A stretch of 64,000 nt of DNA. Origin: Coriobacteriia bacterium. GTDB lineage: Bacteria; Actinomycetota; Coriobacteriia; Anaerosomatales; Anaerosomataceae. The notes under the pieces were generated by a model. That model was given only the letters and a program-made list of their open reading frames with translations. It did not search any database and was not told the DNA's origin. A program made the position numbers and the translations under genes. This document shows positions 1 through 6,760 of the stretch, one piece after another (the stretch's first letter is position 1; every line of letters begins with the position of its first letter). The stretch lies in NCBI GenBank assembly GCA_030652115.1, contig JAUSBK010000010.1:186001-250000 (forward strand), written 5' to 3'.

Positions 1-334
1 GCCCCAAGGATTCAGCACTCGCGTAAGCACCAAGCCGAGTGTCTCCCAGCTCCCGCAGCAGGGCGTATCCGGAACGCGCTAGCTGGACCTCAATCAGACG
101 GACGGCCTCGTCAGGGCGGAGACCGAGCCCCGAGCTCCAGTACGAGGCATCGAGCTCAGATAGGTAGAGATAATGCTTGGACGGGTCGAGACCGGCGCAA
201 GGAAGCATGCATTCGGCGTCTGTCAGGAATGGTGCCAAGGCGTAGGGTGCAAGCGGATACCCTCGTCGGGGGAAGTCGGCAACTCGAACACCTACCGGCA
301 TCAGGGGAAGAATGTCGAGTACGTTCGGGCACAT
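1..334 (-). CDS. Unknown protein, N-terminal part only (runs off the left edge)
   Basis: An open minus-strand frame starts at ATG 334 and reaches base 1 without a stop, giving 111 N-terminal residues. It begins MCPNVLDILPLMPVG and includes YPLAPYALAPFL and SKHYLYLSELDASYW. The start lies only 3 nt after the radical-SAM stop codon, with an AGGAAG ribosome-binding site inside the end of that gene, so it is translated as the last visible gene of the operon. I recognise no family in the visible part; no signal peptide or membrane segment is seen. Its place makes it a probable functional partner of the helicase/ATPase/radical-SAM genes upstream. The C-terminal part lies outside the window. Confidence 0.7.
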   Translation of the reverse strand, partial: MCPNVLDILPLMPVGVRVADFPRRGYPLAPYALAPFLTDAECMLPCAGLDPSKHYLYLSELDASYWSSGLGLRPDEAVRLIEVQLARSGYALLRELGDTRLGAYASAESLG

Positions 335-337
335 CCT

Positions 338-1537
338 CTACTTCTTCCTGCCACCTAGTAGTGTCGTGTTGATTGCCCTAATCTCGTCCTCTTCATGAGA
401 CGACGCGTCAAGGCCAAGGCTTGCCGCTGCGGCACTTCTCGCGGCCCGCGGAATGCGCTCGAGCTGGGAGCTATACCGTTCTCGTGGGATGCCATATCGA
501 ATGCAGATGTTGTTGAGCCTGACCGTGCGCCTTAGTCCCCTAACCTGCTCATCTCGCCACCCATCCGCCAAGAAGTACTCGTCCCGGGTCTGGCTCTTGG
601 CGCGTGGGTCGTAGCCATCCACGTACCTATCCAGCGGCCGATACCGGCAATCGGACACCTGTACGCCCCACTCAGAGCATTGCTCGACCTTTGCAAAGAC
701 CTCCTCTGGAGCTCGGTCATGGTTGTACAGCATGAACACCTGCAGTTGGCGGTTTGAGTAACCGGCATCTCGCAGAATGTCGAGCTGGGTGAGGATGTTC
801 TCATCATCCGCCAAGGGGCCATCCCAAGCGATGCGGGCATTGCGGAACCTCGCAGCCTTCAACAGGGCCGCTAGGTGAGGCTTCTCCTGTAGTATCCGGC
901 CGTCAAGCCCGCTCTGGCTCTCGCAACTTATGACCCTCCCGTCCAGCCGGAAATCCGCAAGTTCCTCAAGGATGTTCTCGATGTGGGGATTCGCAAGGAG
1001 GTTGTTGTCATAGAACACCACCTTGGGCTTAACAATCTCGTTCTTGATGGTCTTCTTCGCCTTGTACTTTGGCTCGATTCGATAAGTGCCGCAGAAGTCA
1101 CACCGACGAACACAGCCACGAGATGCGTGGACTATCTGGTAGTCAGTCTCCACCAGGTCAAAAGCAGGTGCCTCGGCCTCTGCCTCCGGGTGTATGCCTT
1201 CATGAACCTCGTCAGATCCCGTGAACTCCTTGCACTCCTTCGGCGCCAGCGATGCGTAGATTCCTCCAACCCTAATCAACGCACCTGGGAACAAGCTCCG
1301 AGCGCCTTGGACGGCCTCGCGCACGTACTCAGACCAGAATGTGAACAGTGATGTGACGTACACCTCATCCGGTGTGAATCCGTCAAGCGGGTCACCCCAG
1401 ACGACAAGTTTCACGTCGTCGCCTAGGCTTCTGCGCCAGGCGCCAATCTTCAGGAGCCCGACTGGCAGATAGTCTCTGTGGAAGTGGCTCTTCCTGGGAA
1501 CCGGAAAACGGGGCTGGACCAGAAGTACCTGCGCCAC
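338..1537 (-). CDS. Radical SAM protein with B12-binding-like N-terminus
   Basis: This 399-aa protein has a CxxxCxxC cluster motif (CVRRCDFC, Cys142/146/149) that binds the 4Fe-4S cluster of radical-SAM enzymes. The motif is preceded by a Rossmann-like stretch (VLLVQPRFPVP, VYVTSLFTFW, IRVGGIYASL) resembling the cobalamin-binding domain of B12-dependent radical-SAM proteins, although I see no clear DxHxxG motif. The C-terminal half includes VVFYDNNLLANP. The start chosen is GTG 1537, which shares one base with the stop of the upstream gene and has GGGAGAG before it; a longer upstream frame looks non-coding. The substrate is unknown. Linkage to a helicase and an SMC-like ATPase suggests a nucleic-acid or nucleotide chemistry, but this is inference. 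Confidence 0.8.
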   Translation of the reverse strand: MAQVLLVQPRFPVPRKSHFHRDYLPVGLLKIGAWRRSLGDDVKLVVWGDPLDGFTPDEVYVTSLFTFWSEYVREAVQGARSLFPGALIRVGGIYASLAPKECKEFTGSDEVHEGIHPEAEAEAPAFDLVETDYQIVHASRGCVRRCDFCGTYRIEPKYKAKKTIKNEIVKPKVVFYDNNLLANPHIENILEELADFRLDGRVISCESQSGLDGRILQEKPHLAALLKAARFRNARIAWDGPLADDENILTQLDILRDAGYSNRQLQVFMLYNHDRAPEEVFAKVEQCSEWGVQVSDCRYRPLDRYVDGYDPRAKSQTRDEYFLADGWRDEQVRGLRRTVRLNNICIRYGIPRERYSSQLERIPRAARSAAAASLGLDASSHEEDEIRAINTTLLGGRKK

Positions 1538-1983
1538 TACTCTCCCTGCCCGTCCTGCCGGGCGAACGGCCACTGAACTTCTGACTCGCTCGCGGCCGTG
1601 AAGACCTGCGCGTTGAGCCAGAAGCGGAAGACGTCCATGTCCGCGAGCTTCTCCTCCAGCATGTCGATACCTGCATTGGCGTAGGTCTCCGCAATCGCAT
1701 AGCACTCATTCATGCTGGGCGGAGAGCTCGAGGGTTGACTAGCGAGTCCAATCGCCGCCATCAGTCCGCGGTCGGCTGCGCTCAAGCCGCTTGTCTTGAT
1801 GTAGCTATCCTTGCGACCCAGAGGCTTGGAGGTCGACATTCTGAAACCGTACGAGGCGGCCAGTAGGAAGGCCTCCTTGTTTTCGGCTCTCGACTTTTCT
1901 GTAGACAAGGCCTGGACCAGGATGCCGAAGAGCGCCTTCTTGTCGGTTTCCACGTACAGGTTGGTTGCTTCGTTGCTCTCCAT
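1537..1983 (-). CDS. Unknown 148-aa protein of the helicase/ATPase/radical-SAM operon
   Basis: This small soluble protein starts at ATG 1983, one base after the ATPase stop, and its stop codon overlaps the radical-SAM start. It contains KEAFLLAASYGFR, a Ser/Pro-rich linker (SQPSSSPPS) and a helical C-terminal half (CYAIAETYANAGIDMLEEK). No catalytic motif, metal ligand set or membrane segment is visible. Small DndE-like or adaptor proteins often accompany DndD-like ATPases, but I do not see DndE sequence features here and do not claim homology. Its tight coupling on both sides argues that its product is needed in proportion to its neighbours. Confidence 0.65.
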   Translation of the reverse strand: MESNEATNLYVETDKKALFGILVQALSTEKSRAENKEAFLLAASYGFRMSTSKPLGRKDSYIKTSGLSAADRGLMAAIGLASQPSSSPPSMNECYAIAETYANAGIDMLEEKLADMDVFRFWLNAQVFTAASESEVQWPFARQDGQGE

Positions 1984-1984
1984 C

Positions 1985-3979
1985 TCAGCGCTCCGTCACA
2001 CTCGTGGACTGTTCTCGTTGGTCGAAGGCCATGTCCATGACCTTCAGGGCAGGTAGTGAAGCCCTCAGTGCTGTGATGACAGCATCATCGAATTCGCCGG
2101 GCTTCATAAGCAGGGCGAGCTGCCGGTCCTTCAGGTTTTCCCCAATGCTCTCTGCAACGCTGACTCGTGTTGACGGGTCCAGGTTCACGAGCGGACTATC
2201 GAAGATGAGCGGAGGGCTATCGAAACCGGATACCTCCCCCAGCGCCTGGCCGAACGCTATGGCGAGGCACACATTCTCTCCACCACTCAGGCTGCCAGTA
2301 GCTTCCCATCCATCCGACGTGTCCACGGATACGTGATAGTCGTCATCCACCGTCGCCGCGGTGTAAGTCTCGCCCTTCCATACCATCATGTGCTTGAAGG
2401 CCGTGTCTAGAGCCCCAGAGACCCTCGCCCGAGCGGTTCCGAGCAGGTCCTCATAGACCTGCTCGGCGGCATCCAGGCACCTTTCGGTGAATTCCAGGGA
2501 TGCAGCAGTCTTCTGTCTTGAAGCGTCCTTCCTTAACTCAAGCTTGTAAGCCTTTTCGGTCTTCTCAAGCTGTGCCTGCGCGCTGTCTCTGTCCTTCTTG
2601 TCGGAGGTTATGGCCTTGTCAGCGTCCGACAGCAGGTGCTGGGCCTTCGCCCTCTGGTCCTTGACAAGGCCCACCTCGGGGTTGACTCCGCCCAGCGCAT
2701 CGAGAGTGTTGCCGTGCTCCACTACAGCGTTTTGGCACCTCGCAATTTCCGAGTCCAGGGTGGACATCTGTTCTCGGACTTGCGAGGTCTGACGCTGGAA
2801 GGTCGCGGCTCGGTCTCGCCCAACCGCTATCCCGCTCTCATGCTCCATCAGGAACTGTCCGAGCTCCCCAACACGCATCTTCTCGGGCAAGAGCGATTCG
2901 ACCTCGGCGTACTCTGTGGTGCCTGGTGTCAGCGGCCTGCGGCAGATGCACGACTGCCTTGATGGAGACAGTAGCTCTCTTAGATACTCCGCATCGATTG
3001 GGGGAGGATACCTGTGCGCGGCCTTCTCGGTCGCCACCAACCGCTCGGCTTTGACCAGCGCATCCTGCGCCAACACGAATCCGGCGGAGGCAGCTACTGT
3101 CGTCCTGAGCTGCTCCTCTAGAGCGACGTAGTTGCGCTCTGCTTCAGCCAGACCAGACCGGGCCGCCTTCAGCTTCAGGTCCGCCTCGTAGGCGTCCTGA
3201 TGCACTTCGAGCTTGGCATCAAGCTCCGCGATTTCTGCAGCCAGAGAGTCGACTGCATCAGTCTTCTTGGCGATTGCCTCGTCGAGGTTCTGAACTCTAT
3301 CCGTGTAGTCACTCACATCTTTGGCCAGGCGTTCCAAGTGTTCGCCCGCCCCGCCGCCAGAGACGCTGAACCAGTCTCGTCTCACGTCCCCCAGCCGCTT
3401 GATGAGCCGCTCGAGCACGTCAATCTGTGCGATGGACAAGACAGCCTGCTGGACCTTGTCTGATTCGGTGTCATGAATGAACTGCTGCATGCGCTCAAGG
3501 TTCAGCATGTAGTAAGGGCGGATGCGATTGGGGAGGTATCTCTCGACCCACTCCCTGGCCTCGTCCTGCCCGAGGGTTGTCCAGTCGGAGTTCGGTTGAC
3601 TCAACTGAACCGTCAACTCCGACTTGCCTTTCGGCTCCACGTGAGTGGGACCCACAACCCTGAACGCCCGCTTCCGGGTAATACGCACCGAAGTTCGGTC
3701 GTCTAGCATGAAGAGAAGCTGGACCGAAGCCTCCGGCTCCTCTCCCGGTTGCAGACCCTCCCCTAACCTCCCCTTGTTCACGAAGGGCAGGCTCCTATTG
3801 CCGTCGACGGCGTAGAGCTCCTCATCGTAGAGGCACCAGTTGATTGCGTTGAGCAGGTTTGTCTTCCCCGCTCCCACGTGGGCCACCAGGAGCGTAGCTT
3901 GACTCAGCTCACCGTCCTTCGGCAGCTCCAGGTCGCGATACTGGCGATAGTTCCGTATGCGAATCTTGGCCAACCTCAT
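1985..3979 (-). CDS. SMC/Rad50/DndD-like AAA ATPase with Cys hook
   Basis: This 664-aa P-loop ATPase is built like Rad50 and DndD. The N-terminus is MRLAKIRIRNYRQYRDLEL, with Walker A AHVGAGKT at residues 33-40. Long coiled-coil arms run from about 215 to 320 and 375 to 500 on either side of a central C-x-C hook (CICRRPL, Cys344/346). The ABC signature LSGGEN is near 564 and Walker B LIFDSPLVNLD near 591. Such ATPases use dimerisation to sense or load onto DNA. The ATG at 3979 overlaps the upstream stop (ATGA), so a longer frame was rejected. The hook is C-x-C rather than the classic CxxC of Rad50. It is unlike housekeeping SMC, RecF or RecN in length and context, and a defence or DNA-modification role is likely. 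Confidence 0.8.
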   Translation of the reverse strand: MRLAKIRIRNYRQYRDLELPKDGELSQATLLVAHVGAGKTNLLNAINWCLYDEELYAVDGNRSLPFVNKGRLGEGLQPGEEPEASVQLLFMLDDRTSVRITRKRAFRVVGPTHVEPKGKSELTVQLSQPNSDWTTLGQDEAREWVERYLPNRIRPYYMLNLERMQQFIHDTESDKVQQAVLSIAQIDVLERLIKRLGDVRRDWFSVSGGGAGEHLERLAKDVSDYTDRVQNLDEAIAKKTDAVDSLAAEIAELDAKLEVHQDAYEADLKLKAARSGLAEAERNYVALEEQLRTTVAASAGFVLAQDALVKAERLVATEKAAHRYPPPIDAEYLRELLSPSRQSCICRRPLTPGTTEYAEVESLLPEKMRVGELGQFLMEHESGIAVGRDRAATFQRQTSQVREQMSTLDSEIARCQNAVVEHGNTLDALGGVNPEVGLVKDQRAKAQHLLSDADKAITSDKKDRDSAQAQLEKTEKAYKLELRKDASRQKTAASLEFTERCLDAAEQVYEDLLGTARARVSGALDTAFKHMMVWKGETYTAATVDDDYHVSVDTSDGWEATGSLSGGENVCLAIAFGQALGEVSGFDSPPLIFDSPLVNLDPSTRVSVAESIGENLKDRQLALLMKPGEFDDAVITALRASLPALKVMDMAFDQREQSTSVTER

Positions 3980-4167
3980 TGCGCGCCTCCGCTCGCAGAG
4001 GACTGTCCGCTGGGGAGGTGCTTCTGCAAGAGCATCTTGTACTCGCTCTTGAACGAGCGACCGCTCTCGGACCCCTGCTCGAAATCCACTAGCTCGAGCA
4101 GACACTCCTTGACGCCAGGGTCAGTAGCAAGCTGCTCAATCTTCTCGATTATCGACTTGTCGCTCAT
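3976..4167 (-). CDS. Small 63-aa acidic protein between helicase and ATPase
   Basis: A short gene starts at MSDKSIIEKIEQL (ATG 4167), 16 nt after the helicase stop, and ends in an ATGA overlap with the ATPase start. The product is predicted to be helical (KECLLELVDFEQ), has a polar Ser-rich tail (LPSGQSSASGGAQ) and no recognisable domain. An upstream ATG at 4203 would overlap the helicase gene and is less likely. Its tight placement suggests a small subunit or adaptor for the ATPase or helicase. The family is not recognised. Confidence 0.6.
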   Translation of the reverse strand: MSDKSIIEKIEQLATDPGVKECLLELVDFEQGSESGRSFKSEYKMLLQKHLPSGQSSASGGAQ

Positions 4168-4183
4168 CCCATCCTCACAGTCA

Positions 4184-6298
4184 CTAGTCCAACAGTTGCC
4201 CAAGCTCGCCTAGCACTCTGGCGTGCACTTCTGCGCCGTTCTCCGCAGTGGATGCGAACTCATTCAGTCGCTCCAACTCCTTCCTGAACAGTCTGATTTC
4301 CACGTCTCGCAGTTGGGCATCGCCAGACTCACCAAGCCCCGGCCTGACGAGCACGTCATAGATGACGGCTCTATGCTTTCCAGGAGCTCTTCGAAGTAGG
4401 CGTCCTCTCCGCTGGATGAACTCCGTTGGGTTGGTCGAACTTGCGAGAATCAACCCAACACGCGCTGACGGCACATCAACGCCAGCGTCGAGACACTTCA
4501 TGGCAATCAGCACGGGAATGTCGCCGCTCCCGAACTTCTCCAGCAAGAACTCCCTTTCGCTCATCCCACCATATCGAGCTTCGGGCTTGGTGCCCTCCGC
4601 ACCCGTAAACTCGGAGAACACCAAACAACGACCAGCCAAGACTTGCTCCACCGCCAGCATCTGTTGCCTGTCAAAACAGTAGATGATGAGCCGAGTCACA
4701 TCGGGACCCAGCTCCTGAAGCACATCGTCCAGAGCATTCAGCTTCTGCCGCGCGCACTTCACCACACTCGCCCTCATGAAGAGGAACCTCTCGTCGAACG
4801 ACTTATCGCCGTCGGACCCACCCGAAGCCCAGCCCGCCTGCGCCGCCTTCTTCGTCAGCGCCACGTAGTCGTCAAGCTCGTCATCCTCTAGTGATACAAA
4901 CAGCGGCTTGTAGGTGTAGGGGGTCAAGATGGTCAAGGACGTACCGGGGATGACAGTCCTCAGAGCCTCCTCAATCATGAAGGAGTATGGCTCGTGCCCG
5001 AAGTAGTCCTCGAGAACCGCCGTGCCTTCGTCGTCGAACCACCTGTACGGCGTCGCGCTTAGCCCCAGTCGAGCGGTGTAACTGCTCGACAACGCCGCGC
5101 GTAATCTCGAGGCGCCGAGTCCATGAACCTCATCGCCTATCAGCATTGCTTCGGCAATCGGCGACCTTCCCACCAACTCCACGGCAGACAGGAAATCGTC
5201 GCCAGCAGCGGTATTCTGGACGGCGACGACCACCCCGACCCTCCGGGTCCCGGAGGCGACGCGTGAGGCGCACTCCAATACCGAGCTTCTCCACTTGGCG
5301 TTTCCGCCGTGAGCAACGACAGTTGGCACGCCCGGGAAGAACCTGGTCACATCCCGCATCCATTGCGTTGCCAAGTGCTGATACGGAACAGAGATAACGA
5401 GGAGAGTGTGGGGATTGGCTTCGGAGTAGCGCCTCGCGCACTCTAGGGCGGTGACTGTCTTGCCCGTCCCGGTCGCCATTTGGAGTAGTTTGCGACACCC
5501 GCTCTCAAGCCATGCGTCTACCGCCCGAAGTTGGTGCTCCCACAGTCCAACCGGGCAAGAGGAGACTGCCGACGCTGGAGAATAGGCCTCGAGGCGCAGC
5601 TCGCTTAGGGAATCCGGTGCGTACTCGAGAAGTTTGCGGGACACAGCTTCCGGGACGCTCATGACCCGTGCACCGGGGACATCATCGTTCCAGTAGCGTT
5701 CGAACAGGCTGACATCGTCGGCCACGTATGCAGCCTCTACCGCTTCCCAGCTGCGGAAGACCTTGAAGTGCTCAAGGTTGTCCAACCACCCAGAAGCAGT
5801 CTCATTCATCGAGCCGCTGAACGACACTTCATTACCCGAGGCGTCTCTGAGGATGCCAATCTTCTGATGGAAGAGCCCCGAGCCATCAGCGGCTGCGGGT
5901 ACCGCTACTCTCATCTCGAGCGTGCCGTTCCTGAGCATCCAGCACATGGCACGGACGTGGTCACGAGCAAGAATGTCTCCCAGGGTGTCGAAGTCGAGTG
6001 CTTGGAGCATGAACTCGCCAAGTCGCTCGCCAAGCGATTCCCGCGACAACTCCGCTAGTGCGACAGCATCAGCGCTGCTCAAGCGTGGCGAACAAATCAG
6101 CCTGATGCGACCTCCATTCTCGAGCAACCCCGAGATGCCCCGCGCGGCCACAGCTAGTGAAGTCGATGAGAAGAACCCGGCAATCCGGTCGTAGCTCAGT
6201 GAGGCAGACAGTGCCGGGACGTAGAAGGAGGTCAGCACCGACCGGCCCATCTCTCCGGAATCGTAGCTGCGGAGAAGGTCCAAACCCTGCAATCCCAT
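4184..6298 (-). CDS. PLD-family nuclease fused to SF2 (DEAD/DEAH-type) helicase
   Basis: This is a two-part protein of about 704 aa. The N-terminal 230 residues form a phospholipase-D-like nuclease domain: YDRIAGFFSSTSLAVAARG, then FHQKIGILRD (~143) and FSGSMNET (~160), the H-x-K and GSxN parts of the PLD active site. The rest is a superfamily-2 helicase with a Q-motif-like LWEHQLRAVDAW, Walker A MATGTGKT (~275-281), DEVH box (GDEVHGLG), motif III LSATP and motif VI QRRGRLLR. Start 6298 was chosen over 6310 and 6397 because GGGAG lies 5 nt upstream; 6310 is possible. This architecture is frequent in phage-defence and restriction-like cassettes. It is the first gene of the operon. Confidence 0.82.
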   Translation of the reverse strand: MGLQGLDLLRSYDSGEMGRSVLTSFYVPALSASLSYDRIAGFFSSTSLAVAARGISGLLENGGRIRLICSPRLSSADAVALAELSRESLGERLGEFMLQALDFDTLGDILARDHVRAMCWMLRNGTLEMRVAVPAAADGSGLFHQKIGILRDASGNEVSFSGSMNETASGWLDNLEHFKVFRSWEAVEAAYVADDVSLFERYWNDDVPGARVMSVPEAVSRKLLEYAPDSLSELRLEAYSPASAVSSCPVGLWEHQLRAVDAWLESGCRKLLQMATGTGKTVTALECARRYSEANPHTLLVISVPYQHLATQWMRDVTRFFPGVPTVVAHGGNAKWRSSVLECASRVASGTRRVGVVVAVQNTAAGDDFLSAVELVGRSPIAEAMLIGDEVHGLGASRLRAALSSSYTARLGLSATPYRWFDDEGTAVLEDYFGHEPYSFMIEEALRTVIPGTSLTILTPYTYKPLFVSLEDDELDDYVALTKKAAQAGWASGGSDGDKSFDERFLFMRASVVKCARQKLNALDDVLQELGPDVTRLIIYCFDRQQMLAVEQVLAGRCLVFSEFTGAEGTKPEARYGGMSEREFLLEKFGSGDIPVLIAMKCLDAGVDVPSARVGLILASSTNPTEFIQRRGRLLRRAPGKHRAVIYDVLVRPGLGESGDAQLRDVEIRLFRKELERLNEFASTAENGAEVHARVLGELGQLLD

Positions 6299-6465
6299 CC
6301 GAGCTCCCATCCCGCATGGTGGGGCGAGTTGCGTTGCGGGCGAGTCGTGTCCCACCCACATCGTCCCTACGATACCAGTCCGCACCGACACGGCCATCGA
6401 TACGGGAGTCCCCTTCGCGAAATGTTACGCGCACGCGAAAACGCCTTCGAATACAAATCACCCTC

Positions 6466-6633: not shown

Positions 6634-6677
<44 letters not shown>

Positions 6678-6760
6678 AATCTGCGCCACCCGAGGGCAGC
6701 GAAGCATCATAGTACGGCTCGCGCGACGTCACATCAAGCGCCGGACCGCACGCTGTCGCA

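Follow-up and report, generated by a model that had tools for sequence, protein, structure and literature searches.

A radical-SAM gene within a PbeABCD-type defence cassette of a Coriobacteriia bacterium and its possible role in DNA modification

The stretch of Coriobacteriia DNA analysed here (the window; 64,000 nucleotides, positions 186,001 to 250,000 of contig JAUSBK010000010.1) carries an intact radical-SAM gene in one operon with the genes of a PbeABCD-type anti-invader cassette. The evidence leans towards this enzyme being the DNA-modification component of the cassette, and its position there suggests an undescribed way in which a cell may chemically mark its own DNA. The radical-SAM partner is thus presented as a new variant within a known defence system, with a new DNA modification as a possibility. 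The family recurs beside Pbe genes in bacteria and archaea, where it and the known modification enzymes replace each other. Locus designations (L002, L018 and so on) refer to the loci compared.

The Pbe operon and the radical-SAM gene

Six genes were identified on the minus strand, given here in the order of transcription:

4184..6397, minus strand: PbeA, a PLD/HKD nuclease-like domain fused to an SF2 helicase (padloc PbeA, E 6e-203)
3976..4167, minus strand: small protein of 63 amino acids in the PbeB position, an open reading frame between PbeA and PbeC that overlaps the start of PbeC
1985..3979, minus strand: PbeC, a CxC-type ABC ATPase of 664 amino acids (padloc PbeC, E 4.7e-67)
1537..1983, minus strand: probable PbeD/DndE-like protein of 148 amino acids (TIGR04062 dnd_assoc_4, E 2.8e-5, below the cut-off; position; homologues)
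338..1537, minus strand: radical-SAM enzyme of 399 amino acids with a GTG start (Rossmann domain, residues 1 to about 120, and barrel with C142, C146 and C149; PHROG 9298 family)
1..334, minus strand, continuing outside the window (L002:14148-16334): sigma-70-region-4-like protein of 728 amino acids (MzaA-like, E 2e-11)

Based on these matches the "helicase/ATPase operon" of the initial annotation is, as judged from sequence, a PbeABCD (CxC ABC-ATPase/DndE) defence cassette, a known kind (Xiong et al. 2019, PMC6459918; Rakesh et al. 2024, PMC10853773) which that annotation had not named. Its helicase was rightly recognised and is PbeA, which also matched TIGR04095 (E 8.8e-114) and the Pfam families ResIII, Helicase_C and PLDc_2; the length of 737 amino acids is that of the longest open reading frame, and the real start may lie about 100 bases downstream. 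The "SMC-like" protein is indeed an ATPase of the operon and is more exactly described as a PbeC-type CxC ABC ATPase, since its sequence contains Walker A, the LSGGE signature, Walker B and a CIC hook, as expected for the CxC clade. The 63-residue protein resembles a small open reading frame of L018 (E 1e-4) and matched no library family. The "small unknown protein" is coupled to the radical-SAM gene by a shared base, as had been noticed, the G of its TAG stop being the first base of the GTG start; it is probably a PbeD/DndE-like protein, having the size and place of one and a dnd_assoc_4 match that scores 24 bits, below the cut-off of 74 bits. The sigma-70-region-4-like gene begins 3 bases after the radical-SAM gene. 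Sigma-factor-like genes also adjoin Pbe cassettes without a radical-SAM gene in Ruegeria, Pontibrevibacter and Aurantiacibacter, and this gene is therefore regarded as a usual Pbe partner.

The radical-SAM reading frame itself was recovered where the initial annotation had placed it. Its CVRRCDFC cluster is intact, and the CX3CX2C motif was kept in all 103 non-identical relatives, which indicates that it is under selection rather than a product of chance. PHROG 9298, a phage family described as "radical SAM domain protein", matched the protein (E 7e-32) and also its relatives; this family has no assigned function, and most of the radical-SAM loci collected here are from cellular genomes, in conflict systems. 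The Pfam Radical_SAM match was weak (E 0.0013, below the cut-off). Among the 103 relatives no cysteine column was conserved other than the three of the motif, which excludes two classes of enzyme: methylthiotransferases of the MiaB/RimO type, which hold a second cluster by three N-terminal cysteines that the family does not conserve, and SPASM/Twitch enzymes, whose C-terminal auxiliary-cluster cysteines are not conserved either. Membership of a known biosynthetic radical-SAM subgroup would have spoken against a role in the system, and none fits, every match to a curated family model being far below its cut-off.

Integrative element at tRNA-Pro

Three features of a mobile element accompany the cassette:

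6635..6678, plus strand: attachment repeat of 44 bp, identical and in direct orientation to the 5' half of the tRNA-Pro gene (L002:10207-10250)
L002:10173-10249: tRNA-Pro gene, beside a tyrosine integrase gene
L002:10347-11435: tyrosine integrase, adjoining tRNA-Pro

The two attachment copies are about 12.4 kb apart, that of the window lying just before PbeA. The G+C content between them is about 0.59-0.62, compared with 0.64-0.70 in the remaining window. By these sequence features the cassette is an integrative element of about 12.4 kb at tRNA-Pro, made up of the integrase, a few small genes, a gene for a 288-residue protein and the six-gene operon. No DndC-like gene, DNA methyltransferase or DpdA-like transglycosylase was found in the element. 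As neither of the first two was found, the radical-SAM protein is the only candidate observed for a modification enzyme, should the element encode one.

Fold and relation to B12-type enzymes

Sequence-profile searches of solved structures gave marginal matches (best E 0.02), and the fold was compared instead. A confident structure model built from a 29-sequence alignment (pLDDT 92.5, pTM 0.88) shows a Rossmann domain like those that bind cobalamin, followed by a radical-SAM barrel. The closest structural match was AprD4 (Z 26.8 across 327 residues), and the other near-full-length matches were MgmA (Z 23.5), TsrM (Z 22), MiaB (Z 21.7) and OxsB (Z 20). The first 120 residues or so, taken alone, aligned with the cobalamin-binding protein AerR (Z 12.1) and with other corrinoid-binding proteins. 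This agrees with the Rossmann-like, B12-binding-like N-terminal part proposed in the initial annotation, for which the Pfam B12-binding match was weak (E 0.0044, below the cut-off).

The B12-type radical-SAM enzymes AprD4, MgmA, TsrM and OxsB thus share the two-domain fold of the window protein (Z 20-27) at sequence identities of 13-20%. The substrate of AprD4 is a sugar antibiotic precursor, and we know of no DNA substrate among the four; the fold gives no information on the substrate of the window enzyme. The DxHxxG motif is absent from the window protein, as had been observed. Cobalamin-dependent radical-SAM methylases often do without it, so its absence is by itself no argument against cobalamin. 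To our knowledge AprD4 does not use cobalamin although it has the same fold. Signs of B12 use by the host (riboswitches, proteins with B12 domains) were present in the genome of the window and in one other (G516), and no B12 riboswitch was detected in the four other hosts examined. Based on the model and the conserved cysteines, the window protein is predicted to be a single-cluster, B12-type radical-SAM enzyme, which may or may not use cobalamin.

Recurrence of the family

A family search of genomes and viral contigs was combined with loci already obtained in earlier searches; 108 loci in all contained the radical-SAM gene, and the neighbouring genes were clustered. The viral contigs yielded no relative when the single radical-SAM protein was the query, and relatives were found with the family alignment. 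The hosts include actinobacteria, Omnitrophota, Patescibacteria, Planctomycetota, Desulfobacterota and several archaea. Pbe genes lay near the radical-SAM gene in 20 of the 108 loci. Other neighbours were GHKL ATPases (49 loci), ParB-like proteins (32), SNF2-type helicases (22), DndB-like proteins (14) and HerA/NurA (9). The neighbours were identified with Pfam, NCBIfam and padloc, and HerA/NurA through the annotated Marinitoga camini virus 1. In 91 of the 108 loci one or more of these or of related neighbour clusters were present, a figure which describes the set and is no test, the clusters having been picked afterwards.

The association with the same ATPase that the initial annotation suggested looking for does therefore recur, across bacteria and archaea. 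In the window and in L018, L027, L056, L089 and L179, PbeD is followed by the radical-SAM gene with ends that overlap or lie a few bases apart. One of the radical-SAM-Pbe loci (L037) belongs to an isolate, Methanohalophilus euhalobius WG-1MB. On the family tree, where loci with identical contigs were entered once, the Pbe-linked label needs 11 changes (16.8 in shuffles). Well-supported branches make 9 of these unavoidable, so that one ancestral association is not enough; the tree does not distinguish gains from losses of the link.

Mere co-residence in defence islands, with the enzyme belonging to an independent system, would fit the tendency of defence genes to cluster and the opposite strand of the radical-SAM gene in L038, L060 and L074, but it is very unlikely given the same-strand overlap or abutment with PbeD in distant lineages and a minimal 12.4-kb mobile element that holds little else.

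Replacement of known DNA-modification genes

Pbe cassettes were also collected through PbeA or PbeC alone and followed over about 8-10 kb as far as the contigs reached, which gave 44 loci of at least 9 kb. Generic ABC ATPases (many of the PbeC-family matches in the phylum search) and other PLD helicases (L180, L181) were left out. Annotated partners of the cassettes were DndBCDE, SspABCD-like sets and methyltransferases. Four of the 44 loci carried the radical-SAM gene. Among the other 40, a PP-loop gene (DndC-/SspD-like) or a DNA methyltransferase was present in 31, and no modification gene was recognised in the remaining nine; a Pbe cassette may thus not strictly need one nearby. When the four were joined by 13 found through the radical-SAM gene, a known modification gene was present in one of 17.

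The pooled comparison (31/40 against 1/17; 57 loci) gave a Fisher p of 5e-7, and is fair for the question of whether another modification gene is present given the enzyme, but the two sets differ in how they were sampled. In the 44 loci not chosen by the radical-SAM enzyme the value was p = 0.056, since only four of them carry the gene. The contigs that carry the enzyme had a slightly lower median length, 15.8 kb compared with 18.8 kb, and the methyltransferases, detected by motif and a few queries, may have been missed in some loci. No DndC match was found in the host genome (98% complete), and DndC was absent from 14 other genomes with a radical-SAM-Pbe locus. One locus, L162, is a counter-case in which a divergent radical-SAM protein accompanies a C5 methylase. 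The main doubts about a role in DNA modification come from this locus, from the small size of the unbiased sample and from the nine cassettes in which no modification gene was recognised.

Two further Pbe cassettes have notable neighbours: in L165 a lone 300-residue PP-loop gene precedes the Pbe cassette (L165:3621-4523) with no obvious full Dnd or Ssp set, and a tRNA-guanine transglycosylase-like gene (L222:1-615), a possible base-exchange partner, lies about 7 kb from the Pbe cassette of a Natrinema plasmid.

Relation to known systems

The window cassette has the same genes in the same order as known PbeABCD (PbeA, the PbeB-position gene, PbeC with its CxC hook, a probable PbeD/DndE-like gene), and differs in that no DndCDEA set or methyltransferase adjoins it and a radical-SAM gene follows PbeD. 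The Pbe partners described are phosphorothioation or methylation (PMC6459918, PMC10853773), and DndC is a PP-loop enzyme outside the radical-SAM superfamily (PMC10853773). "Radical SAM" occurs in PMC10853773 in connection with DndC only and is absent from PMC6459918. The Pbe systems known so far rely on marked DNA, and in the haloarchaeal system a virus with phosphorothioate in its DNA is protected (PMC6459918). No description of a radical-SAM partner of Pbe was found in open-licence PubMed Central papers; a 2020 survey of ABC ATPases, which reportedly first described the CxC clade, lies outside that scope and may mention one.

In the Dnd system a modification module is joined to a scanning pair of ABC ATPase and DndE, an arrangement that the window cassette would share. 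In other genomes Pbe cassettes have Dnd and Ssp phosphorothioation systems beside them; no DndC was found in the host of the window. The Dpd 7-deazaguanine system uses a modifying enzyme together with DpdB, a partner similar to DndB, and the window element has radical-SAM chemistry instead; in L088 a DpdB-like gene (E 6e-14) directly precedes the radical-SAM gene, and DndB/DpdB-like proteins adjoin it directly in some loci.

In the 2019 survey 320 of 553 Pbe proteins had no dnd genes nearby, and the modification partner was left open (PMC6459918). The radical-SAM enzyme is a concrete candidate partner for part of these dnd-less systems and allows the question to be addressed with one gene.

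Proposed role

The replacement pattern and the genomic context suggest that the radical-SAM enzyme acts on DNA. A marking enzyme is the simplest reading because the family recurs in place of a marking enzyme, is coupled to a DndE-like protein and is found elsewhere beside DndB/DpdB-like and ParB proteins. The initial annotation had taken the enzyme to produce or change a nucleotide, a base or a small molecule that serves the system; this is supported in part by the recurrent link to the ATPase, and the evidence narrows it to the DNA-modification slot, the substrate remaining something we infer.

In the proposed mechanism PbeC and PbeD would scan duplex DNA, and the translationally coupled radical-SAM enzyme would be offered a nucleotide. 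The [4Fe-4S] cluster and SAM would yield a 5'-deoxyadenosyl radical, by means of which the enzyme may put a mark on host DNA that would serve as a sign of self. Should cobalamin be bound in the Rossmann domain, the most likely kind of mark would be methylation of phosphorus or of an unactivated carbon. PbeA, PbeB, PbeC and PbeD would then act on DNA without the mark, and the radical-SAM enzyme would take the place that DndABCDE, SspABCD or a DNA methyltransferase occupies in other cassettes.

It is also conceivable, at slightly under an even chance, that this widespread B12-type family writes an undescribed, site-directed DNA mark which unrelated defence designs (Pbe, ParB-SNF2-GHKL, HerA-NurA) and phages use to tell self from non-self. 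If the enzyme marks DNA, radical chemistry would join methylation, phosphorothioation and base exchange as a means of prokaryotic genome labelling, and new, chemically unusual nucleotides would be expected in identifiable species, some of them isolates.

Two other activities appear rather unlikely. The enzyme could make a small antiviral molecule that the Pbe proteins use or release, in the manner of viperins, which are radical-SAM enzymes with an antiviral role and make a chain-terminating nucleotide; phage-encoded members of the family could then be counter-measures. However, the protein matched no padloc family, viperins included, at E values up to 1, the proteins encoded repeatedly beside it bind DNA, scan DNA or are nucleases and are not nucleotide kinases, and the inverse relation with DNA-modification genes would be left unexplained. 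No more probable is that the enzyme modifies an RNA or protein of the system (for example a tRNA, PbeB or the ATPase), thereby setting the threshold of the system or limiting self-harm. The RNA-acting MiaB aligns nearly as well as enzymes unrelated to DNA, and PbeB is small and fast-evolving, but the additional cysteines conserved in methylthiotransferases and SPASM peptide modifiers are missing from the family, which also accompanies PbeB-free systems (the ParB-SNF2 and HerA-NurA loci).

Removal or repair of a DNA lesion or mark, guarding the host from damage by PbeA, seems improbable to a greater degree. Radical-SAM DNA repair exists in spore photoproduct lyase, with which the barrel aligns (Z about 9.8), and MutL-like GHKL ATPases are common neighbours; the whole-length matches to B12-type enzymes are far better, however, and repair does not predict the replacement of DndC, SspD or methyltransferases.

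Other gene neighbourhoods

A C5-cytosine methylase gene lies beside the radical-SAM gene in two loci. On a viral contig (L102:7910-10068) the two genes overlap, and the methylated base might be processed further; in L162 (L162:2030-6267) a MutH-like/C5-methylase fusion is followed by the divergent radical-SAM gene and then by PbeA. 5-Methylcytosine as a required precursor was rejected, six of ten genomes with radical-SAM-Pbe loci having no C5 methylase, which is weak evidence as several of these genomes are incomplete.

A second recurrent layout, free of Pbe genes, was observed in L107, L108, L115 and similar loci, consisting of a ParB-like protein, a possible nuclease of about 140 residues, an SNF2 helicase, a second ParB-like protein, the radical-SAM enzyme and a GHKL ATPase; it looks like an unnamed defence system. 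The radical-SAM gene adjoins HerA/NurA-like genes in L096, L054, L090 and L015, and a GHKL ATPase gene is present at such loci in bacteria and absent from Marinitoga camini virus 1. Near relatives in L020, L021, L022, L025, L028 and L030 are paired with a GHKL ATPase and a protein of 260-340 residues that has no Pfam match.

Identical radical-SAM proteins were filed under different genomes or names in L063/L065, L047/L048 and L007/L080, the first two pairs under different phyla. Such pairs are either one genome entered twice or stray contigs in metagenome-assembled genomes. In L018, a relative of the window cassette, a gene for a Vsr-like mismatch endonuclease (L018:207-644) is located immediately before PbeA.
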